Source: Deltaproteobacteria bacterium
GTDB lineage: Bacteria > Desulfobacterota > Syntrophia > Syntrophales > Smithellaceae
Direction: 5' to 3'
Assembly (NCBI GenBank): GCA_021372815.1
Contig: JAJFTS010000025.1
Span: 1-32,108, forward strand
Length of the DNA stretch: 32,108 nt
Notes under the pieces: model-generated
Seen by the model: the letters and a program-made list of their open reading frames with translations, nothing else
Databases searched by the model: none
Told to the model about the DNA's origin: nothing
In this document: positions 3,998 through 19,159 of the stretch, piece by piece
Position numbering within the stretch: the first letter of the stretch is position 1
How the letters are laid out: every line of letters starts with the position of its first letter
Made by a program: the position numbers and the translations under genes

Positions 3998-4077
3998 AAA
4001 TTATTCCATTAATAAAGAATACAGACCGGCAAAATACTGTCGGCATTCTTTATAAATTGCACAATTTCTTCATCAAA

Positions 4078-4165
4078 GATGATATTGAAGCGGCGAGGAG
4101 GAGAGCCCGCAGACGTATTACCAATACGTTGTGGAAGCCAACGACGCCAGCAAAAATAGCGCTTT
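4078..4165 (+). repeat. Copy 1 of a dispersed ~90-base repeat
   Basis: This copy matches, in inverted orientation, the sequence at 11828-11921. Shared blocks include GATGATAT, GCGGC.AGGAGGAG, CCGCAG.CGTAT, ATACG, GGAAGCC.ACGACG and ATAGCGCTTT. It lies between hoxH and the protease gene, inside the hydrogenase operon. It has no coding capacity and its centre can fold through the complementary CGTATTA/AATACG parts. It looks like a small non-autonomous intergenic element. Confidence 0.65.
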
Positions 4166-4182
4166 GATTTATAGACTGTGCT

Positions 4183-5610
4183 TTAGCGACTGATACGATC
4201 CAGTTCTCTACCGTCGGCAGCCAGCAGCCTTATCTCCAGAGGCATTTTCCCGATGGCGTGCGTTGCACAGGATAAACACGGGTCATAGCAGCGAATAGCC
4301 GCCTCCACTCTGTTTAACATGCCTTCCGTTAGCCGGTTTCCGACAACATAGGCTTTAGCTACCGCACCCGCCGCCGTGTGCATCGCCCAGTTATTATTTC
4401 CCGTGGCCACGATAAGATTTACTCTGGTCAGTAATCCATGCTCGTCAGTGCCGTAATCATGGAAAAGCGTTCCGCGTGGGGCCTCAATAACTCCGACGCC
4501 CTGCCCCGGCAACGCCTCCAGAGGCGGATAGTTTCTGACGTCATTGGACATAATATCCGGGTCGTCCAGCAACTGGCCTATTCTTTCCAAAGCATAAAGC
4601 AATTCAATCATCCGGGCATAATGATAGTAAAGGGAACCTTCCACCGGTTTTCCGTCATTGATTTGCCGGAACAGTTTGAATTCTTCCTGAGCCAGAGGCG
4701 TGCCGATTTTATCAATGACATTCAGCCGTCCCAGCGGTCCAACCCGGTAAAATCCTTTCGGCCAACCGAGCATTCGCAAATAAGGATGCTTGAGAAACGA
4801 CCATGGTTCCACATGCTCCGCAATATAGGATAGATAATATTCCGGCTTGAACTGTGCCAGCAATTCTCCATGGGCGTCTCTTACGCGAATTTCGCCGTCG
4901 TAGAGTTGCAGGCCGCCTTCCAGATCCACCAATCCCATATAATTGGAGGGAAATGAGGCAAAAGTCTCCGCTGTTTCCCTGTTGGCCTCCAGCCAGCCTT
5001 TGGCAATACTGATGGCCTCTTTTCCGATTAAGGTCATTACTTCCAGTTCAGCAGCAATCGCTTTATGATTTTCTTTGGTCAGCGGAGCATTGACACCGCC
5101 GGCCACAGCAAAATTGGCATGAATTCTCTTTCCGCCAAGTTTTTCGATGATCTGCTGACCGAAACGGCGCAGGTTGACGGCCTTCAGAGCCAGCTTCGGA
5201 TTTTCATCGATAATGCGAAAAACATTGCGCGTAGCCGGATCGGAATCGAAACCGAAGAGTAAATCGGGCGCGGCCAGATGGAAGAAGTGCATGCCGTGAG
5301 ACTGCACCATCTGTCCCATGTGCATCAATTCACGCAACAATTTGGCCGTGCGTGTCGCCTCGACACGCGCCACGGCATCGCAGGCTTTGGAAGCGGCCAG
5401 ATGATGGCTGATCGGGCAAATGCCACAAATGCGCTGTGTGATTTGAGGCATTTCATAGTATGGCCGGCCCTCGCAGAATTTTTCCAGACCGCGGAATTCG
5501 TCCACATGGAAAAAAGTCTGTTCGACTTCACCATTATCATTCAAATGAATGGTTACTCTTCCGTGCCCCTCAATGCGCGTCACTGGCTCAATGGTTATCT
5601 TTTGCCCCAT
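4183..5610 (-). CDS. hoxH: [NiFe]-hydrogenase large subunit, HoxH type (group 3)
   Basis: This 475-residue catalytic subunit reversibly oxidises H2 in the cytoplasm. Both nickel-binding motifs are present: RICGICP (Cys62, Cys65) and DPCLSCATH (Cys445, Cys448). After the terminal motif come 24 more residues, the extension expected to be removed by the protease encoded at 3506-3997. The N-terminal IEPVTRIEGHGRV is typical. Overall similarity is to HoxH of bidirectional NAD-linked hydrogenases (group 3d). ATG 5610 has AGGAG upstream, located in the last codons of hoxY, whose stop is 12 bases away, so the genes are probably translationally linked. There is no signal peptide. HoxE and HoxF are not encoded nearby, so the route to NAD(P) or ferredoxin is open. 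Confidence 0.93.
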   Translation of the reverse strand: MGQKITIEPVTRIEGHGRVTIHLNDNGEVEQTFFHVDEFRGLEKFCEGRPYYEMPQITQRICGICPISHHLAASKACDAVARVEATRTAKLLRELMHMGQMVQSHGMHFFHLAAPDLLFGFDSDPATRNVFRIIDENPKLALKAVNLRRFGQQIIEKLGGKRIHANFAVAGGVNAPLTKENHKAIAAELEVMTLIGKEAISIAKGWLEANRETAETFASFPSNYMGLVDLEGGLQLYDGEIRVRDAHGELLAQFKPEYYLSYIAEHVEPWSFLKHPYLRMLGWPKGFYRVGPLGRLNVIDKIGTPLAQEEFKLFRQINDGKPVEGSLYYHYARMIELLYALERIGQLLDDPDIMSNDVRNYPPLEALPGQGVGVIEAPRGTLFHDYGTDEHGLLTRVNLIVATGNNNWAMHTAAGAVAKAYVVGNRLTEGMLNRVEAAIRCYDPCLSCATHAIGKMPLEIRLLAADGRELDRISR

Positions 5611-5622
5611 AAAAGTTCTCCT

Positions 5623-6168
5623 CTAATCATAGGTGAATAATTCGGGCGGCAAAACCACCGGTGTGCGCCCGGCGAGAAGTTCCGTCAACGCGTAGAAAAA
5701 AGCATCCGCCCGCGGCGGACAGCCGGGAATGAAAAGATCAACTTTGACAACCTTATCCACTCCCACAACCATTTCCAGCGGTTTGCCCAACTCGGGAGAA
5801 TCCGGAATCAATCCGTCAACAACGGTTTCCGTGTCCAGATACGCTCTTTTCAACGCCGCGTCCGTACCGACCAGATTGCGCATCGCCGGCACACCGCCGA
5901 AAGTAGCGCAGTCCCCGACGGCAATCAATATGTCACAACGTTCGCGCATTTGTTTGGCGACTTCAATATTATGCGTATTACAGATCGCCCCTTCGAGGAT
6001 CCCCACGGTAACACCTTCTTTCGGGGGATGCTTGAGATCGGTTATCGGGCTGGAAGTAAATTCCACCAATCCTGATAATTTGACAATGCGCTCATCTATA
6101 TCCAGAAGTGACATGTGACATCCGGCACAACCGGCCAACCAGTCCGTCGCTACTTTTACTTTGGTCAT
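5623..6168 (-). CDS. hoxY: [NiFe]-hydrogenase small subunit, HoxY type
   Basis: This 181-residue small subunit carries the proximal [4Fe-4S] cluster that passes electrons out of HoxH. Ligand motifs visible are WLAGCAGCHMSLLDID near the N-terminus, GAICNTHN, VGDCATFGGVPA and FIPGCPPRAD. It has no twin-arginine leader and is short, as in cytoplasmic HoxY-type subunits rather than periplasmic uptake enzymes. ATG 6168 follows the stop of the upstream iron-sulfur subunit by one base, with AAGGAG inside that gene's last codons. Operon order is iron-sulfur subunit, hoxY, hoxH, protease. Confidence 0.93.
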   Translation of the reverse strand: MTKVKVATDWLAGCAGCHMSLLDIDERIVKLSGLVEFTSSPITDLKHPPKEGVTVGILEGAICNTHNIEVAKQMRERCDILIAVGDCATFGGVPAMRNLVGTDAALKRAYLDTETVVDGLIPDSPELGKPLEMVVGVDKVVKVDLFIPGCPPRADAFFYALTELLAGRTPVVLPPELFTYD

Positions 6169-6169
6169 T

Positions 6170-7963
6170 TTAGACTGCTCCTTTCAGTAATTTCTTCAAG
6201 CCGGCTGACACTTCATCCATGGAAAAAGCGATACCCCTGTTCAGTTTATCCGCCAGTATCCGGAGAATTTCCCAGTCAGACTTAGCTTGTCCTGCGGGTT
6301 GCACCGCACTGTTGATATTCTGAATAAAGCCTTCGGTATTCGTCAGACTTCCTGTTCTTTCCGACCATATTGCTGCCGGCAGCACCAAATCCGCACCCTG
6401 AGTCAGCTCCGACAAATAGCTTGACTGAACGATCTTGAAAGTGCTTACGGGTACTTTCACCAATAAATCTTTCCCTTCTAAATTTTGCTCCCCCTGCAAA
6501 ATGTATAAAAGCTTAACGCCCGCGGGGCTGAAGTTGCCGTTGATCCCAAAAGCTTTCGCCGCGCGCGTATTGACACCGGACTCAATAATGATAAACTGAG
6601 CCTGCTTTTTCAACTGTTTGATCGCGTTTGCCGAGTTTCCGGAAATTGCCGGACCATACAACACAATCGGATTTGACGCCCTGCCTGCGATTTCAATAGC
6701 CTTATTAATATCGCCCGTTTTCAGACTCAAAAAGGCAAATGGCGTCAAATCGTTTTCTTTATCATCAACGATTATCAGGCGTGCTCCTTTATTCAAAGCC
6801 TGCTTCACCAGGAAAGATGCTACCGGTTGATCTTTAGCCGGATTTGTGCTGACGACTAAAATAATGTCGCCTTTGGCGATTTCAGCAAGGGAACTTTGCT
6901 GTTTTTTGAAAATTTGCGGCGCTGCATCATTTAACAGACCGATATTGGAAACTTTTAATTGATCGCAGAATAATTTATGGAGCAGATAAAGCGCTTCATT
7001 GGTCGCGCAACTGGAAACAAGCACGCCTATTTCCTTTTCCTTAACGCCGTCGATTCGTTGGGCCATTATTTGAACAGCATTATCCCAGCTTATCGGTTCC
7101 AGTTTATCTTTATTTCGCAAAAGAGGCTCTTCAACTCTTTTCCGCTCATCATATAAAGGCTCAAAGCGCCCCATTTTGCACAGCAGACCGTGATTCACCG
7201 GCGCGTCCCAGTCTCCCCTGATCTGTAACACATTGCCGCCGCGCGTGACGACCTCCATCCCGCAGCCGATGCTGCATTGTCCGCAGACGCTTTTAATTTT
7301 ATCGGTGAGACTGTCTTTTCCCATGTAGGCGCTTCTTTTATAGAAGAGTGCTCCCGTCGGACATACCTGAACGCATGTGCCGCAGGAAATGCAGGTAGAT
7401 TCGCCCAGAGGCATATTGGCATCCGCGCGCACCATGCTTTCACTGCCGCGCTTACCCAAACCGAGGGTGTGATTGGCCGGCAATTCATCACAGGCGCGAA
7501 TACAACGTCCGCATAAAACACAACGATTGTGTTCCATTAAATAGTATTTATTGGTGGCATCGAGAGGAAATCGTTTTGTATAAGTCGGAAATGCCCAGTG
7601 GTCTATGCCGTAGCGGTAACCGAGTTCCTGGAGTTCGCAACTACCGCTCATTTCACAGTAGGGACAGAAATGATTTCTTTCGGAGAAAAGCAGATCGAGA
7701 ACCAGTTTTCTGGCTTTGATTACCGCGGGCGATTCCGTTTCTATTTCCATCCCGTCGGCAACCGGAAAAGTGCAGGCGGTTTGCAGATTACGTTGTCCTT
7801 TGATCTCGACGACGCAGATTCGGCAGGCACCTATAGCAGTTAAGGCCGGATGATCACAAAGTGTCGGAATGTCAATGCCCTCCCGCCGGGCAATTTTAAG
7901 AACCGCTGTTCCCGGCTCTGTGGTTATTTTCCGGCCGTTAATGGTAATATTCGCCGTAGCCAT
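6170..7963 (-). CDS. Iron-sulfur electron-transfer subunit of the hydrogenase (HoxU fused to a NuoG-like C-terminus)
   Basis: This 597-residue protein chains several iron-sulfur sites. A [2Fe-2S] domain uses Cys36, Cys47, Cys50 and Cys64. A NuoG/HoxU-type His-Cys cluster is NHFCPYCEMSGSC (His98, Cys100, Cys103, Cys109). Two [4Fe-4S] motifs follow (CVLCGRC and CISCGTC), then a molybdopterin-oxidoreductase-type Fe4S4 motif (CGQCSIGCG with a further Cys about 27 residues on). The last ~330 residues resemble a shortened NuoG/molybdopterin domain, with the typical SERTGSLTNTEG segment. Plain HoxU is about 240 residues, so this is a NuoG-like long form. It should wire HoxYH to a flavin NAD(P) module that is not encoded here. 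ATG 7963 is preceded by AAGGAGG. It is the first gene of the operon. Confidence 0.88.
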   Translation of the reverse strand: MATANITINGRKITTEPGTAVLKIARREGIDIPTLCDHPALTAIGACRICVVEIKGQRNLQTACTFPVADGMEIETESPAVIKARKLVLDLLFSERNHFCPYCEMSGSCELQELGYRYGIDHWAFPTYTKRFPLDATNKYYLMEHNRCVLCGRCIRACDELPANHTLGLGKRGSESMVRADANMPLGESTCISCGTCVQVCPTGALFYKRSAYMGKDSLTDKIKSVCGQCSIGCGMEVVTRGGNVLQIRGDWDAPVNHGLLCKMGRFEPLYDERKRVEEPLLRNKDKLEPISWDNAVQIMAQRIDGVKEKEIGVLVSSCATNEALYLLHKLFCDQLKVSNIGLLNDAAPQIFKKQQSSLAEIAKGDIILVVSTNPAKDQPVASFLVKQALNKGARLIIVDDKENDLTPFAFLSLKTGDINKAIEIAGRASNPIVLYGPAISGNSANAIKQLKKQAQFIIIESGVNTRAAKAFGINGNFSPAGVKLLYILQGEQNLEGKDLLVKVPVSTFKIVQSSYLSELTQGADLVLPAAIWSERTGSLTNTEGFIQNINSAVQPAGQAKSDWEILRILADKLNRGIAFSMDEVSAGLKKLLKGAV

Positions 7964-8216: not shown

Positions 8217-8246
8217 TTGACAGCAAAATTCAATACGTGCTACGAA
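8217..8246 (+). promoter_or_regulatory. Promoter of the barrel-nikMNQO operon
   Basis: TTGACA (8217-8222) is followed after 18 bases by TACGAA (8241-8246). The -10 is weak by itself, but it coincides with the left arm of the first NikR operator. This is the same arrangement as at the promoters at 13510 and 13885. Bound NikR would occlude RNA polymerase. Confidence 0.5.
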
Positions 8247-8263
8247 TGCATAGCTAGTAACAC
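8237..8263 (+). promoter_or_regulatory. NikR operator 1 of the nickel-uptake operon
   Basis: GTGcTAC (8237-8243), a gap of 13 bases and GTAACAC (8257-8263), one mismatch to the GTGTTAC-N13-GTAACAC form used by deltaproteobacterial NikR. It overlaps the -10 region. The next operator begins 31 bases downstream, about three helical turns, so both lie on the same face of the DNA. Confidence 0.8.
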
Positions 8264-8267
8264 TATT

Positions 8268-8294
8268 GTGCCACTATTATGATTGCAGTAACAC
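8268..8294 (+). promoter_or_regulatory. NikR operator 2 of the nickel-uptake operon
   Basis: GTGccAC (8268-8274), 13 bases, GTAACAC (8288-8294). The right arm is perfect and the left arm has two mismatches. The site ends just before the AAGGAG ribosome site (8299-8304), downstream of the presumed transcription start. It probably binds cooperatively with operator 1. Confidence 0.72.
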
Positions 8295-8311
8295 TAATAA
8301 GGAGATTCAAG

Positions 8312-9094
8312 ATGACGTGGAAATTCTTTTTAAGGGGAATACTATATTTCATATTGCTACTCGTTGCCTGCCCTTCCTGGGCGGCCCACCCGTTGATTAC
8401 CGACGACACAGGCACTCAGGGGAAAGGCAAATTTCAGATGGAATTAAACGGACAATACGATTGGGACGATGAAGATAATGAAGGAGTGTCTGTCGAGGCA
8501 TATGGATGGGAAGCCGCGGCCACGCTGTCTTACGGTATTGCAGAAAATGTCGATCTGGTTTTGAGCATGCCTTATCTCTGGGGCAAGGCGGAAGAAAACG
8601 ACGTAAAAGTATATGATGAAAACGGTATCGGCGATCTGGTACTGGAAACAAAAATGCGGATTATCGAAAAAAACGGTTTTAGCCTAGCCTTAAAACCGGG
8701 AATAATCTTCCCCACGGGTGATGATGAAAAAGGGCTGGGTGTCGGTCAAATAAGCGGCCAGATTTTTCTAATCGCTTCCCAGGAACTGGGTTCATGGGCA
8801 TTTCACACTAATCTTGGTTATATCAGAAACGAAAACGACGCCGATGAGCACAAAGATATCTGGCACGCTTCTTTGGCCGGCACTTTTGAAATCATTAAGG
8901 ATTTGACGCTGGTCGCCAATATCGGCATTGAGCGCAATCCCGACGATGCAGTAAAAGACGACCCCGCTTTTTTAATCGGCGGGATCATCTATTCCATAAC
9001 CGAAAATCTGGATGTTGATTTAGGCGTCAAATTCGGCCTGACCGAACCGGAGACGGACATTTCCGCTCTGGCCGGAGTTGCCTTCAGATTTTAG
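8312..9094 (+). CDS. NikR-controlled outer-membrane beta-barrel protein, candidate nickel channel
   Basis: This 260-residue exported protein has a signal peptide (about residues 1-24, ending PSWA). The mature chain starts PLITDDTGTQGKGKFQMELN and shows alternating strands, ending in the outer-membrane C-terminal signature AFRF. It resembles the 'transporter' barrel family related to MetA of phenol degradation (PF13557-like). The mature chain has no cysteine, as is usual for outer-membrane proteins. ATG 8312 is chosen for its AAGGAG, though the frame is open from 8279. Two NikR operators precede it and nikMN follows 46 bases later, so it is likely the outer-membrane entry route for nickel. I know of no characterised family member with that role. 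A degraded duplicate lies at 274-1047. Confidence 0.75.
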   Translation: MTWKFFLRGILYFILLLVACPSWAAHPLITDDTGTQGKGKFQMELNGQYDWDDEDNEGVSVEAYGWEAAATLSYGIAENVDLVLSMPYLWGKAEENDVKVYDENGIGDLVLETKMRIIEKNGFSLALKPGIIFPTGDDEKGLGVGQISGQIFLIASQELGSWAFHTNLGYIRNENDADEHKDIWHASLAGTFEIIKDLTLVANIGIERNPDDAVKDDPAFLIGGIIYSITENLDVDLGVKFGLTEPETDISALAGVAFRF

Positions 9095-9140: not shown

Positions 9141-10163
9141 ATGCACATGGCAGACGCTTTACTCTCACCGGCAGTGGGAGCAACGATGTGGGCAGGGTCA
9201 GCGGCGGCAATCGGATATTCATCAAAGAAGCTGAAGGAAAATTTGGATAACAAAACGATCCCTCTGATGGGGGTGATGGCCGCGTTTGTTTTCGCGGCAC
9301 AGATGATCAATTTTACCATTCCCGGTACCGGATCGAGCGGACACATCGGCGGAGGAATGCTTCTGGCCATTATTCTCGGACCCTATGCAGCTTTTCTCGC
9401 CATGGCCTCAATACTGACGGTACAGGCGCTCTTTTTCGCCGACGGCGGATTGCTCGCCCTGGGCTGTAATATCTGGAATCTGGGCATTTACCCGTGTTTT
9501 ATTATCTATCCTCTGATATATAAACCTATAGCGGGTGACGGAAGGAACGTTCAACGAATATCCATTGCAGCAATTCTGAGTGTCATCATCGCCCTGCAAC
9601 TGGGCGCTTTCTCCGTTGTTTTAGAAACTCTTTTATCCGGCAAGAGTGAATTGCCCTTCAACACTTTTGTTCTGCTTATGCAGCCGATACATCTGGCCAT
9701 CGGCCTGGTGGAAGGAATTGTCACGGCCGGAATAATAAGCTATGTCCAGAAAGTCAGGCCGGAAATTCTTCAGGCACAGCCGCTTAATACCGGAACTTCA
9801 ATCAAAAATGTCCTGGTCGCTTTTGTTATTTTAGCTGTTATCACCGGCGGAGCATTTTCGTGGTTTGCTTCAACTCATCCGGACGGTCTGGAATGGTCCA
9901 TTGAGAAAGTCACCGGTAAAGGCGAACTGGATGAAGCAACGCAGGGCATAGCTCCTGCCCTCAAAGAAATTCAGGAGAAAACAGCTTTTCTACCCGATTA
10001 TAGTTTCAAACCCACAGCCAGCGAAGAAGCACCCGCGGATGAAGCACCTGTATGGCCGGGAATTGAAGCGGGAACTTCGCTTGCCGGTATTGTCGGGGGA
10101 ACCATTGTTCTGTTGTTTACTTTATTGATTGGTTTCGGCATCCGGCTTTTCAAAAAACAATAA
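9141..10163 (+). CDS. nikMN: Nickel ECF-type transporter, fused substrate-binding membrane subunit NikMN (CbiM family)
   Basis: This 340-residue integral membrane protein is the S-component of an energy-coupling-factor metal importer. It begins MHMADALLSPAVG; in CbiM/NikM the N-terminal residues including His2 form the metal site. About seven membrane segments follow. From about residue 225 comes a NikN-like part with HPDGLEWSIEKV (PDGLE domain), an outside loop with PDYSF, and a final membrane helix. The N part is therefore fused, as in NikMN. NikR operators upstream and nikR nearby argue for nickel rather than cobalt. AAGGAG precedes ATG 9141. A remnant of a second copy lies at 1087-1230. 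Confidence 0.9.
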   Translation: MHMADALLSPAVGATMWAGSAAAIGYSSKKLKENLDNKTIPLMGVMAAFVFAAQMINFTIPGTGSSGHIGGGMLLAIILGPYAAFLAMASILTVQALFFADGGLLALGCNIWNLGIYPCFIIYPLIYKPIAGDGRNVQRISIAAILSVIIALQLGAFSVVLETLLSGKSELPFNTFVLLMQPIHLAIGLVEGIVTAGIISYVQKVRPEILQAQPLNTGTSIKNVLVAFVILAVITGGAFSWFASTHPDGLEWSIEKVTGKGELDEATQGIAPALKEIQEKTAFLPDYSFKPTASEEAPADEAPVWPGIEAGTSLAGIVGGTIVLLFTLLIGFGIRLFKKQ

Positions 10164-10181: not shown

Positions 10182-10225
10182 ATACGCCCCGGAAAAAAAT
10201 AACTGGAGTTATTGCCGGGGCGTAT
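10182..10225 (+). other. Strong hairpin between nikMN and nikQ
   Basis: ATACGCCCCGG (10182-10192) and CCGGGGCGTAT (10215-10225) form a perfect 11-bp stem. The loop itself contains AATAAC-TGGA-GTTATT, a further 6-bp hairpin. There is no T-tract after it, so it is not a typical terminator. It may protect the nikMN message or lower nikQO expression relative to nikMN. Confidence 0.6.
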
Positions 10226-10268
10226 GATATTCAACAAAGCTATAAAAGGGGTGTTGCCGGAAGGAATC

Positions 10269-11078
10269 ATGACTTTTGATGAAAAGTATTACAATATAGG
10301 ATTCATTGATCAGTTATCCTACAAAGATACCTTTGTTCATCGTCTGGACCCCCGGGCAAAACTGATTGCCACACTGTTTTTCCTCTTCACCGTTGTCTCT
10401 TTTTCCAAATATGAAATAGCCGCTCTGTTGCCTTTCTTTCTCTACCCCATGCTTTTGATGACGATCGGCGAAATTCCGTTTATGTTTATTTTTAGAAAAG
10501 TTATCATGGTTTCACCTTTCGCGATTTTTATAGGAATTTTTAATCCCCTGCTGGATTCGGCGCAGGTTGCCGTTTTCCCGGAACTGACGATTTCAGCGGG
10601 CTGGATTTCTTTCTTATCCATCCTGATTAAGTTCACACTTACGGTCAGCACTGCGTTGTTGCTTATTGCCACAACATCCTTTCCGAACGTCTGCCATGGA
10701 CTCCGGCAACTGGGACTCCCTTCCCTGTTCGTCTCGCAACTTTCTTTTCTCTACCGTTATATTTTCGTTCTTATGGAAGAAACCATGCGCATCGTGCGCG
10801 CGAGAAACATGCGCTCCTACGGAGAACGCGGCAAAGGCATCAGAATCTTTGTACGCATTGTCGGAACACTTTTTATCAGAACGGTGGAAAGGGCGGAAAG
10901 GATTTACTTTGCGATGCTTTCCCGGGGATTTCAGGGAGATATGCCGTCCCTTAAACGTTTTCATATCGCAACCGGCGACATTGTTTTTGCCTTATCCGTT
11001 GGGGTTTTTCTTTATGTCTTCCGGCTCTATCCGGCAACGCAAATCCTGGGCCGATTTGTTCAGGGAGTATTTTCATGA
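10269..11078 (+). CDS. nikQ: Nickel ECF transporter transmembrane coupling subunit NikQ (CbiQ family)
   Basis: This 269-residue T-component couples the ATPase to NikMN. It shows the family pattern: an early HRLDPRAKLIATLFF segment, several membrane helices, and the cytoplasmic coupling helices with the Ala-Arg-Gly-like motifs RARNMRSYG and AMLSRGFQG. ATG 10269 is chosen for its GGAAGGA ribosome site; the frame extends back to 10212 through the hairpin region. The stop overlaps the nikO start by four bases (ATGA). Confidence 0.88.
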   Translation: MTFDEKYYNIGFIDQLSYKDTFVHRLDPRAKLIATLFFLFTVVSFSKYEIAALLPFFLYPMLLMTIGEIPFMFIFRKVIMVSPFAIFIGIFNPLLDSAQVAVFPELTISAGWISFLSILIKFTLTVSTALLLIATTSFPNVCHGLRQLGLPSLFVSQLSFLYRYIFVLMEETMRIVRARNMRSYGERGKGIRIFVRIVGTLFIRTVERAERIYFAMLSRGFQGDMPSLKRFHIATGDIVFALSVGVFLYVFRLYPATQILGRFVQGVFS

Positions 11079-11809
11079 GCCATCACATTGTAGAGTTTAA
11101 AAATGTTTCTTTCCGCTATCCGGACGGTACTGAAGCCCTGCGGGATATTTCCTTCCGCATCACGCACGGCGAATCTGTGGGGATCATCGGTGCCAACGGT
11201 GCCGGTAAATCCACCCTGCTCATGCACATGAACGGTTATCTCATGCCGACATCGGGAACGGTCAACATCGGCGATCTTTATCTAACCCGCCAGACACGGC
11301 AGGAAATCCGCCGGAAGGTCGGCATTGTTTTTCAAAATCCGGACGATCAATTATTCATGCCGACCGTTTTTGAAGACGTGGCATTCGGACCTCTTAATCT
11401 CGGTATGGACGAAACGGCCGTTAAGGAAAGAGTGGACTACGCGCTGAATCTGGTAAACGGGCTGGAACTGAAGAACAAACCGCCGCACCATCTTTCCAGC
11501 GGTCAGAAAAGCGCCGTCGCGATTGCTTCGGTTATCGCGGTCGAACCGGATATCCTTGCGATGGACGAACCGGCAGCCAATTTGGATCCCCGGTCAAGGC
11601 GTCTGCTTATTAATCTTCTCAAAACATTCGAGCATTCGAAAATCATCGCCTCGCACGATCTTGATCTGATTATGGATGTCTGCCACCGCTGTATCGTGAT
11701 CAAGGAAGGCATCGTCATCGCCGACGGCCCGGTTTCGGAAATACTTACCAACAAAATACTTCTCGAAGAAAATAATCTGGAACTGCCGCTGTCATTGCAA
11801 CGGAATTGA
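11075..11809 (+). CDS. nikO: Nickel ECF transporter ATP-binding subunit NikO (CbiO family)
   Basis: This 244-residue ABC ATPase powers nickel import. It shows Walker A GANGAGKST, the Q-loop FQNPDDQLF, the signature LSSGQKSAVAIA, Walker B ILAMDEPAANLDP and the H-loop ASHDL. The signature Ser-Ser-Gly-Gln is the common ECF variant. The start codon overlaps the nikQ stop, so translation is coupled. It is the last gene of the nickel-uptake operon and is followed by the inverted copy of the dispersed repeat. Confidence 0.9.
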   Translation: MSHHIVEFKNVSFRYPDGTEALRDISFRITHGESVGIIGANGAGKSTLLMHMNGYLMPTSGTVNIGDLYLTRQTRQEIRRKVGIVFQNPDDQLFMPTVFEDVAFGPLNLGMDETAVKERVDYALNLVNGLELKNKPPHHLSSGQKSAVAIASVIAVEPDILAMDEPAANLDPRSRRLLINLLKTFEHSKIIASHDLDLIMDVCHRCIVIKEGIVIADGPVSEILTNKILLEENNLELPLSLQRN

Positions 11810-12083: not shown

Positions 12084-12878
12084 TTATTCGGAGTCGTCTT
12101 CATGCTGTTGATGAACATTTTTTTGTTTTAGATCATCTGCCGAAATATAAATTATCTCCTCATTGCTTTGACGGATAACCCTTAAAATGACAACAGGCCA
12201 AGCCGAAGGACTTGCAACACCGCCTTCGATTCTTTGAACCTCTCTTGCACCAAAGACATAGAAACCAGCCCCTTCAAGTTCTTTTATGCTTTGAGAAAGA
12301 TCGAAAGCCATGCTGACTCTATCGCCAGGACCAAGATCAGAACCAATGTCTATCCAATCGCCAATAACTTGAAAAAACCCTCCGACAAGGTCTACTTCCT
12401 CTTGATTATGCAATTCATCGTGAGTAAAAGAAGACATACAACAGCCATGAACAATATTTAGAATTTCAGTTCCAGTCGTCAGTCGATTTAAAAAAGATGG
12501 GATGTTGCTTTTGATTCGTTTTATCTTGACCTGTTCCTGGATATTGCATTGATTAAGTTTCTCTGTTACCCAATTCTCGTGATTTGTTTTCATTTGTCTG
12601 AGAATGTCCGTCGTATAAGTCTCAGATTGATCATCTACCATCTTATGATGTATACGACATAACAGCATCAGATTTTCGTATGAATCGATCTGCCCTTGTG
12701 GATAAGTTGGATCGTGTCTTGGTCCATTAGGGCTACCCGAAACAATATGACATTCTTCGCCTACAATTGATTCATCATTATTTAACGTTGCATCAATGAC
12801 GAGATCATGTTTGCAGATAGCACACTTATTGCCGGATCGGCCCCATAATATTTTTCTATTTCTGTCCGTAATATTCAT
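12084..12878 (-). CDS. HNH endonuclease-domain protein
   Basis: This 264-residue protein has an N-terminal HNH fold: zinc-type CAIC (about residues 17-20), the active-site-like EECHIVSG, and NLMLLCRIHHKMVD with the second Cys and paired His. The C-terminal half (from about residue 130) is unrelated to anything I recognise and shows no membrane segments. The enzyme could cut DNA, as in stand-alone restriction or phage-defence nucleases, but no partner gene is present. ATG 12878 was preferred over TTG 12887; no clear ribosome site is visible. It sits alone, opposite to its neighbours, between nikO and nikR, flanked by a repeat element. It is probably an accessory insertion in the nickel region. 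Confidence 0.65.
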   Translation of the reverse strand: MNITDRNRKILWGRSGNKCAICKHDLVIDATLNNDESIVGEECHIVSGSPNGPRHDPTYPQGQIDSYENLMLLCRIHHKMVDDQSETYTTDILRQMKTNHENWVTEKLNQCNIQEQVKIKRIKSNIPSFLNRLTTGTEILNIVHGCCMSSFTHDELHNQEEVDLVGGFFQVIGDWIDIGSDLGPGDRVSMAFDLSQSIKELEGAGFYVFGAREVQRIEGGVASPSAWPVVILRVIRQSNEEIIYISADDLKQKNVHQQHEDDSE

Positions 12879-12932
12879 TGTGTCCAATCTTGTTTATATA
12901 GGAATTGGTATATACCACCTCATATAACTGGC

Positions 12933-13349
12933 CTAAGATAAGTCTGTGCCTTTCGTCGCCATCATGAATCCCGCATGCTTCACGCTCTTGATGGATTTCA
13001 ATTTCTGATAGAGTTCCTCGATCTCTTTTGATTTGCCCTTGGTCACAATAATTTCAAAACAGTTGTGGTGGTCGAGATGGATATGCTGGGTGGAAAGAAT
13101 GCAGGCGTGATAATCATGTTGAACATCCAATACTTTGTTCACCAGTTCCCTGGTGTGGTGATCGTAAACCAGCGTTATCGCTCCGGTTACCTCTTTGTTC
13201 TCCGTCCATTCCTTTTTGACCAGTTCATCGCGGATCATATCGCGCAGGGCTTCGGAACGGTTGGTGTACTTTTTTTTTCTGATCAAACGGTCGAATTTGA
13301 TCAGCAAATCTTCTTCCAACGAAACACCGAATCTTATAAGTTTGGACAT
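12933..13349 (-). CDS. nikR: Nickel-responsive regulator NikR
   Basis: This 138-residue protein has an N-terminal ribbon-helix-helix DNA-binding domain (residues 1-45, SKLIRFGVSLEEDLL...RSEALRDMIR) and a C-terminal ACT-like nickel domain. The four E. coli ligands are all present with a uniform shift of two: His78, His89, His91 and Cys97, in VQHDYH and QHIHLDHHNC. It should bind DNA as a Ni-loaded tetramer and repress. ATG 13349 is preceded by GGAGGTGAT. Its own promoter (13384-13411) is more than 110 bases from the operator at 13529, so autoregulation by that site is doubtful. Predicted targets in this window are the nickel-uptake operon, the small RHH gene and the [FeFe]-hydrogenase operon. 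Confidence 0.95.
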   Translation of the reverse strand: MSKLIRFGVSLEEDLLIKFDRLIRKKKYTNRSEALRDMIRDELVKKEWTENKEVTGAITLVYDHHTRELVNKVLDVQHDYHACILSTQHIHLDHHNCFEIIVTKGKSKEIEELYQKLKSIKSVKHAGFMMATKGTDLS

Positions 13350-13383
13350 GGTTATCACCTCCATAAATTTTAAGAGTTTCAAA

Positions 13384-13411
13384 TTTATAAAAATAATTAT
13401 CAAAAGGTCAA
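13384..13411 (-). promoter_or_regulatory. nikR promoter
   Basis: Minus-strand TTGACC (13411-13406), 16 bases, TATAAA (13389-13384). The predicted transcript starts about 28 bases before the nikR ATG. No NikR half-site overlaps it, which suggests constitutive nikR expression. Confidence 0.5.
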
Positions 13412-13528
13412 GACATTTCTCTCTGTTATTTCGAGATATTGAACATCACATGAAATATTTAACAAATCGTGGCTCATACCGATATCCGTCTTGATATTTA
13501 AATATTTAGTTGACAGAGCCAAATATAT

Positions 13529-13555
13529 GTGTTACATTATTTACAATAGTAACAC
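13529..13555 (+). promoter_or_regulatory. NikR operator over the promoter of the small RHH gene
   Basis: Perfect GTGTTAC (13529-13535), 13 bases, perfect GTAACAC (13549-13555). The promoter is TTGACA (13510-13515), 17 bases, TACATT (13533-13538), so the left operator arm covers the -10. This is one of two perfect matches in the window. The first gene downstream is the RHH gene at 13591. Confidence 0.87.
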
Positions 13556-13590
13556 GATTCATATGATGTTTTCACTTTTTGAGGCAAGCC

Positions 13591-13824
13591 GTGATAAAGA
13601 CAAAAAGGGCATACGGGTTAGGTAGTTCAACTTTAAGCATTGTCATACCGACCGAACTGTTACTGGAGCTGAATCATTTGGCAAGCATCAGCGGCACCAG
13701 CAGAAACAAACTTATAAAAAATGCCGTAGAAGATTTATTAAACAGGGAAAGAAGAAGCAAGACCAAATTAGATAAAGAATTTATCATTCATGAACAAATA
13801 CTAAATGCGCATCCCGATCAATAA
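13591..13824 (+). CDS. Small ribbon-helix-helix protein under NikR control
   Basis: This 77-residue protein has a ribbon (STLSIVIP, about residues 13-20) and two helices (TELLLELNHLASISG, SRNKLIKNAVEDLLNRE) typical of CopG/Arc-type DNA-binding folds. A charged tail follows. It lacks any nickel domain. GTG 13591 was chosen because GAGG lies seven bases upstream; TTG 13579 in the same frame is the alternative. It has its own NikR-overlapped promoter and is separated from hydA by a second NikR operator. It could be an antitoxin-like or stand-alone repressor acting on hydrogenase or other genes. No toxin gene is adjacent. Function unknown. Confidence 0.7.
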   Translation: MIKTKRAYGLGSSTLSIVIPTELLLELNHLASISGTSRNKLIKNAVEDLLNRERRSKTKLDKEFIIHEQILNAHPDQ

Positions 13825-13903
13825 TAATCAATATAATCCTATCGAGTATTTTGTCATTACTTAGAATTAAGCATTATGTTTATCTTGACATAATTGAAAT
13901 ATT

Positions 13904-13930
13904 GTGTTACATATTTTTTATTAGTAACAC
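13904..13930 (+). promoter_or_regulatory. NikR operator over the hydAB promoter
   Basis: Perfect GTGTTAC (13904-13910), 13 bases, perfect GTAACAC (13924-13930). TTGACA at 13885-13890 and TACATA at 13908-13913, 17 bases apart, form the promoter, again with the left arm on the -10. The distance from -35 to operator (19 bases) equals that at 13510. This places a nickel-free hydrogenase directly under nickel-dependent repression. Confidence 0.87.
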
Positions 13931-13975
13931 TATTAATCACTATCAGGTAAAAATAATTGATGCGGAGGATGAATA

Positions 13976-15253
13976 ATGAATGTCATTGCGAAAACTTATC
14001 AAAAAGGGGAAATCCCCGGTGTTATAGCCATCAATGCGTCCGTATGCAAGGGATGCGACGCCTGTAAACGGCACTGTCCGACCGGAGCGATTACAGGCAT
14101 GTTTGGCGCAACCCACAGTATTGATGTTGACCTTTGCCTCAGTTGCGGTCAGTGTCTCGTCAATTGCCCATTTGGAGCGCCCTATGAAACATCGGACGCC
14201 GTGGATACTGTCATTTCCAAGCTGAATGATGCAAACGTGACGGTTGTTGGAATTATCGCTCCCGCCGTCCGTGTTGCCATCGGCGAAGAATTCGGCATGC
14301 CTGCTGGTTCTCTGGTAACGGGAAAACTGTACGGCGCGATGAAAAAAGCCGGAATAGAAATTTTCGATAATAATTTCACAGCCGATTTAACCATTATGGA
14401 AGAAGGATCTGAATTTATTTCAAGAGCGCGTCACGCCGTTTTCGGTGAAAAAGGTGAAAACGGCGAACCCATCGGTCCCCTGCCCCAGTTCACGTCCTGC
14501 TGTCCGGCATGGGTTCGATTTGTGGAAACACAGTATCCGTCGCTGATTCCTCATTTATCGTCAGCGAAATCTCCTCAGCAAATGGCCGGAGCCGTCGCCA
14601 AGACGTATGGAGCGAAAGTCTGGGGAAAACCAGCTGAACAGATTTACACTATCGGCATCATGCCCTGCACAGCCAAAAAATTCGAAGCGTCGCGTCCCGA
14701 ATTCAAAAGCGCTTTCGAGTACCAGACACATATCAATAAAGCAAAGAGCGAAACATACGCGGATGTCGATGTCGTCTTGACTACCCGGGATCTCGCCCGT
14801 CTTTTTAAGAAGATGAAAATCGATCTGGCTAAAGAACAGGATTACACGCCTGAAATTCTTTTTGCGGAATACTCGGGTGCCGGAACCATTTTCGGCAATA
14901 CGGGCGGTGTGATGGAAGCCGCTGTCAGAACGGCGTATGCTGTCATCACGGGTAACGAACTTACGGACGTCGAGTTCAAACCGGTGCGCGGATTAAAAGG
15001 TGTCAAAAGCGCATCGGTGACACTCAAGGACAGCAAATATGACAAGGAGGTAACCATTAATCTAGCGGTGGTTCACGGTATTGCCAGAAATCTGAAACCG
15101 GTCATCGATCAGGTTCTCGCGGGAACTTCCCCCTATCACTTTATCGAAGTTATGAATTGCCCGGCGGGATGCATTAACGGCGGCGGACAGCCCATACAAA
15201 AAAACGGCTCTTCCTGGATCGAAGCCATTCGTCCATGGTTTGCCTGGAAATAA
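13976..15253 (+). CDS. hydA: Periplasmic-type [FeFe]-hydrogenase large subunit HydA
   Basis: This 425-residue catalytic subunit, like the Desulfovibrio HydA in length and layout, reversibly makes or oxidises H2. Two [4Fe-4S] clusters are bound by CKGCDACKRHCP (Cys24, 27, 30, 34) and CLSCGQCLVNCP (Cys54, 57, 60, 64). The three H-cluster motifs are complete: TSCCPAW (Cys175-176), MPCTAKKFEA (Cys231) and EVMNCPAGCINGGGQP (Cys395, Cys399). It is therefore probably active and not a sensory variant. There is no signal peptide; export is expected by riding with HydB, which carries a twin-arginine leader. GCGGAGGA precedes ATG 13976. A perfect NikR operator covers its promoter. Confidence 0.95.
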   Translation: MNVIAKTYQKGEIPGVIAINASVCKGCDACKRHCPTGAITGMFGATHSIDVDLCLSCGQCLVNCPFGAPYETSDAVDTVISKLNDANVTVVGIIAPAVRVAIGEEFGMPAGSLVTGKLYGAMKKAGIEIFDNNFTADLTIMEEGSEFISRARHAVFGEKGENGEPIGPLPQFTSCCPAWVRFVETQYPSLIPHLSSAKSPQQMAGAVAKTYGAKVWGKPAEQIYTIGIMPCTAKKFEASRPEFKSAFEYQTHINKAKSETYADVDVVLTTRDLARLFKKMKIDLAKEQDYTPEILFAEYSGAGTIFGNTGGVMEAAVRTAYAVITGNELTDVEFKPVRGLKGVKSASVTLKDSKYDKEVTINLAVVHGIARNLKPVIDQVLAGTSPYHFIEVMNCPAGCINGGGQPIQKNGSSWIEAIRPWFAWK

Positions 15254-15273
15254 CTATCTAAAGGAGAATGATT

Positions 15274-15594
15274 ATGTCTGAACAAGATTACAAATATATC
15301 GAAAACCCGCTTCATATAACCCGAAGAGAGTTCATTACCATTACAGGAATCATTACCGCTTTTCTGGCTCTCCCCTCAATATGGATCAGATCGGTGGCAA
15401 CGGCAAATAACGATTACATCAAAGCGCGTACCAAGAACCTTTATCAGGATGATGTTCAATCGAAAATTCGTGTCAGCCACGCGAACAAATCCGTAGCCCG
15501 GTATTACAAGGAATTCGGCGGTAAACCCTTAAGCCGTTTGTCCGAAGAATTATTGCATACAAAATACATCAACAGAACGAAAGCTCTTTCTTAA
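15274..15594 (+). CDS. hydB: [FeFe]-hydrogenase small subunit HydB with Tat signal
   Basis: This 106-residue protein has the twin-arginine motif TRREFITITG followed by a hydrophobic stretch. A small-subunit domain (Fe_hyd_SSU type) follows, recognisable by VSHANKSVARYYKEFGGKPLS and SEELLHTKY. In Desulfovibrio this subunit wraps the large subunit and supplies the export signal for the whole folded enzyme. ATG 15274 is chosen over ATG 15268 because AAGGAG (15261-15266) is then at a normal distance. It starts 20 bases after hydA, in the same operon. Confidence 0.9.
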   Translation: MSEQDYKYIENPLHITRREFITITGIITAFLALPSIWIRSVATANNDYIKARTKNLYQDDVQSKIRVSHANKSVARYYKEFGGKPLSRLSEELLHTKYINRTKALS

Positions 15595-15609: not shown

Positions 15610-16263
15610 ATGCACAGCAAGAATATGATTTTAAAGCACCCTTTAAGCGTAAGAATTTTTCATTATCTGCTGGTTATCAGTTTTGTGCCGCTGGCGGTAA
15701 CCGGTTTGATACTTTATTTTAAACCTTTTTCGGAAAGCACAATGAATTTAACCATACGGGTTCATGTGATTGCCGGCATTTTATTGACATTTGACGCCTT
15801 ATCCTTTTTTATGATCGGCTATAAACGTGTCGTGCTGTTTCTCAGCAGAGTTTTCTCCATCTCTGGCAACGATTTCAAGTGGTTTGCCGTTCTCGGAGGA
15901 TATCCCCAAAAACTGCTTTTACACAAGAAAGTTCCCGTACCTCCGATGGGAAAATACAATTCGGGACAAAAACTTTTCGGCGTATGTGTCTTCATCGGAG
16001 GCGTTATCTTAATTTTTACGGGTCTGGCGCTCTGGGCATTTCCGCATAATCTGCCCCGCGGAACAGTTGCTCTGCTGGGACACCTGCACACCATCGCCGC
16101 CTGGGCGCTGACGCTGTTTTTGTGCGTTCATATTTTTCTCGGAATTTATATGTTCGACGATTTCAAAGCCATGTTCCTCCATGGTAAAATTCCCTATGAA
16201 GAAGCCAAAGAAATGGCCCCTCTTTGGGTGGAAAAAGAAATTATTCCTTTGCCAAAGAATTGA
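15610..16263 (+). CDS. Membrane b-type cytochrome subunit for HydAB (FdnI/HyaC-like)
   Basis: This 217-residue protein has four membrane helices and the haem-b ligand pattern of the formate dehydrogenase gamma / hydrogenase cytochrome b family: His18 (FHYLL), His52 (VHVIAG), His158/His160 (GHLHT) and His174 (VHIFLG). The MGKYNSGQKLF segment is typical of FdnI-type anchors. It should link periplasmic HydAB to the quinone pool. In a syntroph this could work as quinol-driven H2 release, with proton consumption outside, or as H2 uptake; direction cannot be read. GGAGG precedes ATG 15610, which is 15 bases after the hydB stop. Confidence 0.87.
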   Translation: MHSKNMILKHPLSVRIFHYLLVISFVPLAVTGLILYFKPFSESTMNLTIRVHVIAGILLTFDALSFFMIGYKRVVLFLSRVFSISGNDFKWFAVLGGYPQKLLLHKKVPVPPMGKYNSGQKLFGVCVFIGGVILIFTGLALWAFPHNLPRGTVALLGHLHTIAAWALTLFLCVHIFLGIYMFDDFKAMFLHGKIPYEEAKEMAPLWVEKEIIPLPKN

Positions 16264-16300: not shown

Positions 16301-16427
16301 CAGGTAAGTTGTTGCCTGAGAGAGAGGTTCATCTTCTGATCTCGAGGGAAGTTTGAAGTCTTTTATTAATATATAGTTATTTTATTAATGCCAAAGGTTT
16401 GATTCTTCCCGAATCAAACCTTTTTTT
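16301..16427 (+). ncRNA. Candidate leader or attenuator RNA of the hydrogenase maturation operon
   Basis: About 127 bases between a good promoter and a strong terminator. A 5' hairpin CAGGTAA-GTTG-TTGCCTG (16301-16318) has seven pairs. A looser GAGA...TCTC hairpin (about 16322-16343) follows, then an A/T linker and the terminator. The segment GTTTGA (16351-16356) could pair with TCAAAC (16414-16419) in the terminator's 3' arm and compete with it. It matches no riboswitch class I can recognise. It could equally be a stand-alone small RNA. Confidence 0.4.
16393..16427 (+). terminator. Intrinsic terminator 11 bases before the TM1266-like gene
   Basis: AAAGGTTTGATTC (16393-16405) and GAATCAAACCTTT (16411-16423) form a perfect 13-bp stem with a five-base loop, followed by a run of T to 16427. 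The next start codon is at 16439, leaving no room for another promoter, so expression of the maturation genes must involve read-through. Confidence 0.85.
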
Positions 16428-16438
16428 GTGAGGAAATT

Positions 16439-16687
16439 ATGGATAAACGCATCGGTACGGTCACCATTATTATTACCGACAGAACCAGCCAGGCGCAGAA
16501 GGTCAATCAGATTCTCTGTGACTTCGGAGAAATAATTATCGGACGTATGGGTTTGCCTTACACACCCGGCAATTTGCATATCATCGCGCTCATCGTTCAC
16601 GCCAGCAATGATGAAATCGGTGCGTTGACCGGAAAACTGGGCGCATTGCCCGGCGTCTCGGTCAAATCATCTCTGACAAAAATTTAA
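16439..16687 (+). CDS. TM1266-like iron-only hydrogenase system regulator (ACT-like)
   Basis: This 82-residue ACT-like protein belongs to the family called 'iron-only hydrogenase system regulator', whose members sit next to [FeFe]-hydrogenase maturation genes. Recognisable are the N-terminal KRIGTVTIIITDR, the central FGEIIIGRMGLPY and the final GVSVKSSLTKI. Biochemical role is not established in the family; ligand sensing is inferred from the fold. AGGA at 16431-16434 serves as ribosome site, immediately after the terminator stem. It is followed 23 bases later by hydG. Confidence 0.85.
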   Translation: MDKRIGTVTIIITDRTSQAQKVNQILCDFGEIIIGRMGLPYTPGNLHIIALIVHASNDEIGALTGKLGALPGVSVKSSLTKI

Positions 16688-16710
16688 GCAACATTTAAAG
16701 GTAAAACACT

Positions 16711-18105
16711 ATGAAAGATTTTATTGACGACAATCATATTGAAAGCATTCTTGCGCAAGCTAAAAATCCCGAACCCAAACACGTCCGTGAGATTATCGAC
16801 AAGGCCTATGAATTAAGGGGCCTGTCTCCGGAAGATGTCGCCGCTCTGCTGCAAACGGAAGATGACGACCTTATCGGAGAAATTTTACAGGCGGCTCATA
16901 AAATCAAGAAAGATATTTACGGCAACCGTCTGGTTCTTTTCGCCCCGCTCTACATTGCCAATCACTGCTCCAACAACTGCCTGTATTGCGGTTTCCGCCG
17001 CGACAACAAGGAGCTCAACCGGGTTGCTCTGACCATGGAACAAATCAAAAATGAAGTGAAGGTATTGGAACGCGAAGGCCACAAACGCCTGCTGATGCTC
17101 TGCGGCGAGCATCCCGCCCGTTCTTCTCTGGAATATTTTATGGAAGCCATTGAAACAGCCTATTCCGTAAAAACCGAAAAAGGAGGAGAAATCCGACGGA
17201 TCAATGTGGAAATCGCGCCGCTGGAAGTGAATGAATACAGACAGCTGAAAAATACAGGCATCGGCACGGTTGTCCTGTTCCAGGAAACCTATCATCACGA
17301 GACCTACAAAATAATGCATCCCAGCGGCCCCAAGAAGGATTACGCCTGGCGCCTGACCGCCATGCATCGCGCGCAGGAAGGAGGCGTCAACGACGTGGGA
17401 CTGGGCGCTCTTTTCGGATTGTATGATTACAAATTCGAGGTTCTGGGCCTTCTTTTGCACGCCCTGCAATTGGAAAAAGACTGCGGCGTCGGCCCGCATA
17501 CCATTTCCATTCCCCGTCTGGAACCGGCGTTCAATGCTCCGGCAGCCATCAAACCGCCCAACCCGGTCAGCGACCATGATTTTAAAAAGCTCGTCGCCAT
17601 TATCCGTATGGCGGTTCCCTACACGGGAATGATCCTCTCCACCAGGGAAACTCCGGAATTACGTGATGAAGTTTTTGCTCTTGGCATTTCTCAGATCAGC
17701 GCCGGTTCCAGAACCAATCCCGGCGGCTATCAGGAAAACAACAGCGACGCTTTCCGCGCCGCGCAATTCAATCTTGGCGATACACGCACGCTTGATGAAG
17801 TCGTTCTGGATATTACCGAGCGCGGCCATATTCCCAGCTTCTGCACGGCTTGCTACCGTCTGGGACGCACGGGCAAAGACTTTATGGACTTGGCCAAACC
17901 TGGTTTGATCCAGAAATTCTGCCAGACCAACGCTGTTTTTACTTTTAAAGAATATCTACTGGATTACGCCAGTCCCGCAACACGCGAGGCAGGAGAGAAA
18001 TTAATTCAAAAAATGCTGGACGAAACTTTCAAAGCAAAAAGAAAGAAAATGGTAACCGACCGGCTGCAAAAAATTGAGGACGGCACAAGAGATGTCTATA
18101 TCTGA
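16711..18105 (+). CDS. hydG: [FeFe]-hydrogenase H-cluster radical SAM maturase HydG
   Basis: This 464-residue tyrosine lyase makes the CO and CN- ligands of the H-cluster. The radical SAM cluster motif is CSNNCLYC (Cys86, Cys90, Cys93). The C-terminal second-cluster motif CTACYRLGRTGKDFM with a further Cys about 22 residues on (KFCQTN) distinguishes HydG from ThiH and is complete. Length is normal for the family. The gene overlaps hydE by 14 bases. HydF, the GTPase scaffold that receives the product, is not encoded in this window. Confidence 0.95.
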   Translation: MKDFIDDNHIESILAQAKNPEPKHVREIIDKAYELRGLSPEDVAALLQTEDDDLIGEILQAAHKIKKDIYGNRLVLFAPLYIANHCSNNCLYCGFRRDNKELNRVALTMEQIKNEVKVLEREGHKRLLMLCGEHPARSSLEYFMEAIETAYSVKTEKGGEIRRINVEIAPLEVNEYRQLKNTGIGTVVLFQETYHHETYKIMHPSGPKKDYAWRLTAMHRAQEGGVNDVGLGALFGLYDYKFEVLGLLLHALQLEKDCGVGPHTISIPRLEPAFNAPAAIKPPNPVSDHDFKKLVAIIRMAVPYTGMILSTRETPELRDEVFALGISQISAGSRTNPGGYQENNSDAFRAAQFNLGDTRTLDEVVLDITERGHIPSFCTACYRLGRTGKDFMDLAKPGLIQKFCQTNAVFTFKEYLLDYASPATREAGEKLIQKMLDETFKAKRKKMVTDRLQKIEDGTRDVYI

Positions 18106-19159
18106 TAAAATTGATAATTTGCTGATTAAAGCTGAAATCGGCAGAAATTTGACACGTACGGATATTATCGCGCTTCTCAAAGCGCCGGGTGATTATTCCA
18201 CGGATATTTTCGATGTTGCCGACAGAGTTCGCAGACAACAGATGGGTAATGAGATATTTCTGCGCGGCATCATTGAATTTTCCAATTATTGCGAACGCAA
18301 TTGCCTCTATTGTGGCCTGCGCAAAAGCAATTCCAGCTTGAGCCGTTACCGGATGACTGAAGATGAAATTATCGCAACAGCAAAACAAATTAAAAAAACA
18401 GGCGTTCCGACTGTCGTTTTGCAATCGGGTGAAGATTCATTCTTTTCCACCGACAGGATTTGCCGTCTGATTGAGCAAATTAAAAATGAAACGGGACTGG
18501 TCATCACATTATCCGTAGGCGAAAGAAGCGCTTCCGACTTTCAGTCTTTTCAGCAGGCGGGAGCGAACCGTTATCTGCTCAAGCATGAAACCGCGTCCCC
18601 GGAACTATACAAATATATACGTCCCGGTTGTCATCTGGACAAACGAATGCAATGTCTGCGTTCACTGAAGCATCTTGGCTTTGAAACGGGAACGGGTAAC
18701 ATGGTCGGTCTGCCGGGACAAACAATGGAAATTCTGGCCGACGATCTGATTTTCATGAAACAACTTGACGCCGATATGCTGGGCATCGGACCGTTCATCG
18801 CTCATCCCGATACACCTTTCGCCGGCATTGATAATGACGATATCGAACTGACGTTACGGGTTGTGGCCGTAGCCCGGTTGCTTACACGCAATACGAATAT
18901 TCCCGCCACTACGGCCCTGGCCACCCTTCACCCCCAGGGTCGGCTTCTTGCTCTTCAGGCCGGCGCCAATGTTGTCATGCCGGATTTCACGCCGGAAATT
19001 TACAAATCCCGCTATGATATCTATCCTGGAAAAACCGACACCAACCCTGCGGAAGAAACCATTGAAAAACTAAAATCCGATATTCAATCAATAGGCCGTA
19101 CAATAAACTTCTCCGTCGGTAATCGCCAAATCAGACCATATCAGGGAATAACGCACTGA
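18092..19159 (+). CDS. hydE: [FeFe]-hydrogenase H-cluster radical SAM maturase HydE
   Basis: This 355-residue radical SAM enzyme takes part in building the dithiomethylamine bridge of the H-cluster. The cluster motif is CERNCLYCG (Cys67, Cys71, Cys74). Other family blocks are SGEDSFF, LKHETASPELY, GNMVGLPGQT and IGPFIAHPDTPF. ATG 18092 lies inside the end of hydG with GAGGA upstream, so translation is probably coupled; TTG 18074 in frame is less likely. It is the last gene of the regulator-hydG-hydE group. Confidence 0.95.
   Translation: MSISDKIDNLLIKAEIGRNLTRTDIIALLKAPGDYSTDIFDVADRVRRQQMGNEIFLRGIIEFSNYCERNCLYCGLRKSNSSLSRYRMTEDEIIATAKQIKKTGVPTVVLQSGEDSFFSTDRICRLIEQIKNETGLVITLSVGERSASDFQSFQQAGANRYLLKHETASPELYKYIRPGCHLDKRMQCLRSLKHLGFETGTGNMVGLPGQTMEILADDLIFMKQLDADMLGIGPFIAHPDTPFAGIDNDDIELTLRVVAVARLLTRNTNIPATTALATLHPQGRLLALQAGANVVMPDFTPEIYKSRYDIYPGKTDTNPAEETIEKLKSDIQSIGRTINFSVGNRQIRPYQGITH

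Follow-up and report, generated by a model that had tools for sequence, protein, structure and literature searches.

In the genome of a Smithella-like, syntrophic deltaproteobacterium (3.26 Mb in a fragmented assembly, 91% complete), the gene for the nickel-responsive repressor NikR is found next to the genes of a nickel-free [FeFe] hydrogenase, whose promoter is overlapped by a perfect NikR-type operator. It is probable that nickel-loaded NikR represses this hydrogenase operon (hydA-hydB-cytochrome b), a small ribbon-helix-helix (RHH) gene and nickel uptake, so that low nickel would turn on metal import and the nickel-free enzyme together. The stretch of DNA analysed here, referred to as the window, comprises 32,108 nucleotides (contig C227), and the genes, the sites, the geometry of the promoters and two types of hydrogenase can be read directly from it. 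According to the proposed mechanism, Ni-NikR would bind both perfect operators (13529-13555 and 13904-13930) and block two sigma-70 promoters, each with its -10 element within an operator, thereby shutting off the RHH gene and the periplasmic, quinone-linked hydrogenase, while the same repressor would silence nickel uptake through tandem operators located before the porin-cbiM-Q-O genes. When nickel is scarce, apo-NikR would release the DNA, both import and the [FeFe] enzyme would be expressed, and nickel would be spared for enzymes that have an absolute need for it.

The window is arranged in the order of [NiFe] hydrogenase genes, porin gene, cbiM-Q-O, an HNH-type ORF, nikR, the RHH ORF, hydA-hydB-cytochrome b and TM1266-hydG-hydE. 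The product of nikR (12933-13349, minus strand; 138 amino acids from the ATG at 13349, with a longer TTG-started ORF extending to 13403) contains the Pfam domains NikR_C (8e-29) and RHH_1 (3.9e-7), matches the NCBIfam NikR equivalog over its cut-off (1.6e-53) and matches NikR 2bj1 in the PDB (5e-38). The first-pass annotation had stated that all four nickel ligands are retained, and this was borne out by alignment to solved NikR chains, in which a His is followed by His at +11, His at +13 and Cys at +19 (His, His-X-His, Cys). The HNH-endonuclease-like ORF between cbiO and nikR (12084-12887, minus strand) is of atypical codon usage and has no match at this place in those cassettes of relatives that were examined.

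A perfect palindrome GTGTTAC-N13-GTAACAC covering the -10 element of the hydA-hydB-cytochrome b promoter had been reported in the first-pass annotation, and both its sequence and its position proved exact. The predicted operator, O-hydA (13904-13930), lies on a plus-strand promoter (13885-13913) composed of TTGACA at 13885, a spacer of 17 bp and TACATA at 13908-13913 preceded by TGT. The view that this is the single operator 5' of hydA did not hold, however, as an overlooked site of equal quality, O-rhh (13529-13555, predicted by the same pattern search), overlaps a second promoter, TTGACA-N17-TACATT (13510-13538, plus strand, TGT before the -10), with the small RHH ORF lying between the two promoters. 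Both -10 elements are formed in part by the left half-site of the operator. No terminator was detected between the rhh promoter and hydA. Outside the -35 elements and half-sites the two promoters are identical at 27 of 82 positions (shuffled mean, 27.5), which is no more than chance, and a recent duplication was rejected on this ground.

Weaker tandem sites before the nickel-uptake operon had also escaped the first reading. The predicted operator 1 (8237-8263) has one mismatch and a TTGACA 14 bp upstream, and the predicted operator 2 (8268-8294), 31 bp from it centre to centre, has two mismatches; the motif of the deltaproteobacterial NikR regulon is thus present in exact form at hydA and rhh and with one or two mismatches before porin-cbiMQO. 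The operon encodes a porin-like outer-membrane protein (8279-9094, plus strand; Pfam PF13557, 4e-25; true start probably at 8312) and a nickel ECF transporter of the CbiM-CbiQ-CbiO type (9141-10163, 10212-11078 and 11075-11809, plus strand; Pfam CbiM, CbiQ and ABC_tran). Some 8 kb away, an ORF at 262-1047 resembles the N-terminal and C-terminal parts of this porin and, by eye, looks like its diverged paralogue.

Exact N13 sites are expected by chance about 0.014 times in 3.26 Mb and about 2e-6 times in the gap between nikR and hydA, yet two were observed there within ∼400 bp, and 100 shuffles of the window yielded no perfect palindrome. When up to two mismatches were allowed, the site was found at five places in the genome, four of them in the window, with no other convincing NikR-type site anywhere in the 3.26 Mb; the reversed control pattern gave nine matches at the same stringency. 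Likewise, with one mismatch allowed, the pattern occurs 14 times in the family as against 17 for the reversed control. Since mismatch-tolerant counts do not exceed the control, weaker sites alone carry little weight and the case rests on exactness and on position over promoters.

The identities of hydA, hydB and the cytochrome b gene were confirmed by Pfam. The product of hydA (13976-15253, plus strand) is the large subunit of a group A [FeFe] hydrogenase of the periplasmic type (Pfam Fe_hyd_lg_C, 5e-80, and Fer4; TIGR02512 over cut-off), with a PDB match to the periplasmic [Fe] hydrogenase (1.8e-107), the nearest named sequences belonging to Smithella and other deltaproteobacterial MAGs. The H-cluster motifs TSCCP, MPC and EVMNCP, sought as TSCCPxW, MPCxxK and ExMxCxxGCxxGG, are present in the translation, as are the two 4Fe-4S clusters of periplasmic group A HydAB enzymes. 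HydB is a separate small subunit (15268-15594, plus strand; Fe_hyd_SSU, 1.2e-19) with a twin-arginine (Tat) signal, TRREFITITG, read from the translation, and is followed by a cytochrome b561-type membrane subunit (15610-16263, plus strand; Ni_hydr_CYTB, 4.5e-18).

The genes for a TM1266-like regulator and the H-cluster maturases HydG and HydE (16439-19159, plus strand) probably form their own transcription unit. They are separated from the cytochrome b gene by another TTGACA promoter (16266) and by a conserved leader with a terminator, given which hydG and hydE are probably outside the NikR-controlled unit. Because a second [FeFe] hydrogenase, of the NuoF/HydA type, is encoded elsewhere in the genome (contig C211), the cell would require the maturases HydE, HydF and HydG at high nickel as well, which fits the separate promoter.

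The leader itself (16303-16428, plus strand; ∼100-125 nt) contains a strong terminator hairpin (z -3.7) and was found at every one of the 22 TM1266 loci in the family; 18 of these were shown directly, and the others were recognized with a model or by eye. Hardly any variation is seen in the blocks CCTGA and CTGATCT or in the terminator, and GGGAAG could pair with CUUCCC of the terminator loop. The covariation is slight; no Rfam family was matched at cut-off, and the model of the leader retrieved no well-scoring loci outside the family. We regard it as a candidate cis-regulatory RNA in the maturation of [FeFe] hydrogenases.

As for the enzyme that serves when nickel is present, the first-pass annotation had pointed to the cytoplasmic [NiFe] hydrogenase encoded at 3506-7963 (minus strand; protease, large, small and NuoG-like subunits), with a large subunit named HoxH. 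These genes are real, but neither the Hox identity nor the role of an obvious replacement was upheld. The large subunit reaches 562 bits to 7t2r (8e-168), the electron-bifurcating NiFe HydABCSL hydrogenase (PMC8880783), as against 417 bits to the NAD-reducing (Hox) hydrogenase, and an enzyme nearest to the bifurcating type is not an obvious functional substitute for a periplasmic one. Judged from its sequence, it is cytoplasmic and has a job other than that of the Tat-exported, cytochrome-b-linked HydAB. Meanwhile, a second, group-1-like [NiFe] hydrogenase is encoded on contig C142 (NiFe_hyd_SSU_C, a large subunit of full length and a cytochrome b of its own; hydF adjoins), where no NikR site was found. 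The nickel counterpart of HydAB is most likely this cytochrome-b-linked enzyme, and not chiefly the bifurcating type of the window.

NikR is encoded in 32 of the 51 family genomes. The porin-cbiMQO-nikR cassette is common in relatives, where larE-, larB- and larC-like genes (names read from the translations, the larC-like one also matching Pfam Ni_insertion) often come next; in one genome (G015) these are followed in turn by TM1266-hydG-hydE. Perfect sites in the family mostly precede porin/cbiM or TonB-receptor genes, the expected targets of nickel-uptake control, and the porin gene follows a NikR-type site in relatives as well. The site is therefore conserved at porin-cbiM, but not at hydA. 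Closely related hydA genes occur in nine of the 51 genomes, namely the window's own and eight with 77-92% identity, and a NikR site before hydA is absent from all eight, one of which (G023) shows just 127 bp upstream. The closest relative (G008, 92% HydA identity) possesses nikR and still has no such site. The comparison of operators in related genomes, suggested by the first-pass annotation as a check, hence locates the hydA operator in the window genome alone, and 80 named public contigs contained no convincing NikR site near hydA. In six relatives (L013, L015, L016, L017, L018 and L019) the hydA promoter is covered instead by a tandem palindrome of the ATATGYC-N5-GRCATAT type, with TTGAC upstream. 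Within this sample the NikR link at hydA appears local to the window genome, and it looks like a replacement of one operator by another.

The RHH ORF downstream of O-rhh (13591-13824, plus strand; 77 amino acids, GTG start) scores 0.0037 against Pfam RHH_1, which is below cut-off, and lacks a metal domain. Its AlphaFold model is a strand-helix-helix (pLDDT 66), for which a fold search returned weak matches alone (E above 1), an Arc variant being the top one. The ORF was found in the window genome alone among the 51 family genomes and its codon usage is not decisive as to coding; given the sub-cut-off score, the codon usage and the lack of a family relative, it may be silent. An origin as a mobile-element gene was discarded, there being no match in plasmids or phages, and a role as a mini-NikR acting on the same operator was judged unlikely, since its strand TLSIVIP (compared by eye only) lacks the residues that NikR has at its DNA-contact positions.

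This ORF is central to the rival explanation that survives best, in which NikR does act at these sites, but mainly to control rhh and perhaps nikR itself, while hydA answers mostly to another signal, e.g. the RHH protein, and NikR provides fine-tuning. The upstream operator does sit on the rhh promoter, the predicted product is of the DNA-binding type and is placed between nikR and hydA, and the different palindrome over hydA in six relatives indicates that other regulators can own this gene. We nevertheless consider such an arrangement rather improbable, as hydA has a perfect operator of its own on its own promoter and the RHH ORF is an orphan of undecided coding quality. A more elaborate, two-layer nickel circuit, in which NikR governs the hydrogenase together with a dedicated small RHH regulator that adds a feed-forward or delay step at nickel shortage, the whole module having been recently assembled in one Smithella-like lineage by replacement of an older hydAB operator, is a speculative and somewhat unlikely elaboration.

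Direct repression of hydA by Ni-NikR is favoured by the way in which operator and promoter are fitted together. A perfect TTGACA is situated 12-14 bp upstream in 11 of the 14 NikR-type sites of the family (0.15% with shuffled flanks), and the hydA site obeys this spacing, so that its promoter is a standard one of the NikR type; the nickel-uptake promoters of G011, G012, G014, G016, G017, G020 and G021 exhibit the same geometry. Repression is therefore the natural reading. We infer NikR binding, its nickel dependence and the physiological switch from these features, and repression rather than activation from the promoter geometry. The opposite sign, i.e. activation or a response to nickel excess by which hydA would be raised in nickel-replete cells, seems very unlikely: NikR activates some promoters in Helicobacter pylori, but here the operator covers the -10 element, so that a protein bound to it blocks polymerase, and nickel-uptake promoters, which need repression, share this geometry. 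That the palindromes arose by chance, or are those of a different regulator whose motif is similar, is hardly credible either, since, although the abundance of the reversed control with mismatches allowed implies that some such palindromes arise without NikR, two exact copies adjoin nikR over promoters, exact sites of the family lie mostly at nickel-uptake loci, and the sole paper found to contain the half-site together with NikR links the one to the other.

Repression of an [FeFe] hydrogenase by NikR gains support from its apparent recurrence in an unrelated, Desulfovibrio-like genus of the same phylum (g116). In a set of 395 genomes from the phylum, several families have exact sites before cbiM, and five genomes of this genus have them before hydE-hydA or hydG. 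With one mismatch allowed in 61 sampled genomes of the genus, 56 of which encode nikR, 9 of the 13 site-bearing genomes have a site before hydE or hydG, and altogether ten sampled genomes carry sites before hydE(-hydA) or hydG. The start of HydA from this genus has the Desulfovibrio-type periplasmic [Fe] hydrogenase as its closest solved structure. The reversed control is frequent here too, and thus the evidence is placement, not count; read in this way, the recurrence supports a real connection between NikR and [FeFe] hydrogenases. The loci in question (L188, L189, L191, L195/L196, L160-L164 and L192) have their sites before hydG or hydE-hydA clusters, and in L195/L196 these form a tandem pair.

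Nickel supply is limiting in many anaerobic consortia. If the proposed switch is true, a syntrophic fatty-acid degrader can replace a nickel hydrogenase by one that is free of nickel, a matter of relevance to H2 transfer in digesters and to the dosing of trace metals. Rewired and not-rewired relatives offer a natural comparison.

The concept resembles the response of methanogens to nickel limitation, in which [NiFe]-hydrogenases give way to the [Fe]-hydrogenase Hmd (PMC12350162). In both cases a nickel-free hydrogenase takes over at nickel shortage; Hmd, however, is an enzyme of another class from another domain of life, and in the passages of that paper that were searched no statement was found of a NikR operator controlling hmd. 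Much closer is the NikR-nikMQO nickel-uptake regulon of deltaproteobacteria described by Rodionov et al. (2004, Genome Biol 5:R90, PMC545781), who derived the motif GTGTTAC-N13/14-GTAACAC for NikR, the very form that had been attributed to deltaproteobacterial NikR in the first-pass annotation. The porin-cbiMQO genes with their NikR-type sites and nearby nikR are a local version of this regulon, with which the hydA promoter shares its geometry, but the window genome adds a hydrogenase to it. The surmise that NikR sites near hydrogenase genes might have been predicted before in sulfate reducers was also correct: PMC545781 lists a site before hydAB of D. desulfuricans and predicts repression of the nickel-independent isozyme by excess nickel. 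No experiment testing this control was found in the open-access literature searched. The same predicted wiring in separate lineages makes the 2004 prediction testable in several hosts. Motif, target (a periplasmic iron-only hydrogenase) and proposed logic are the same in D. desulfuricans and in the window; yet the former has one imperfect site (GTaTTAC) at -83, whereas the latter has two perfect ones, and, unlike in the listed case, nikR neighbours hydA, the cytochrome b gene is part of the operon and an RHH ORF is interposed. In view of the different bacterial order and of the close hydA relatives without a site, the window site was probably gained independently. The concept is thus already published; the window contributes a new locus, distinguished by its two operators, a neighbouring nikR and the RHH ORF.
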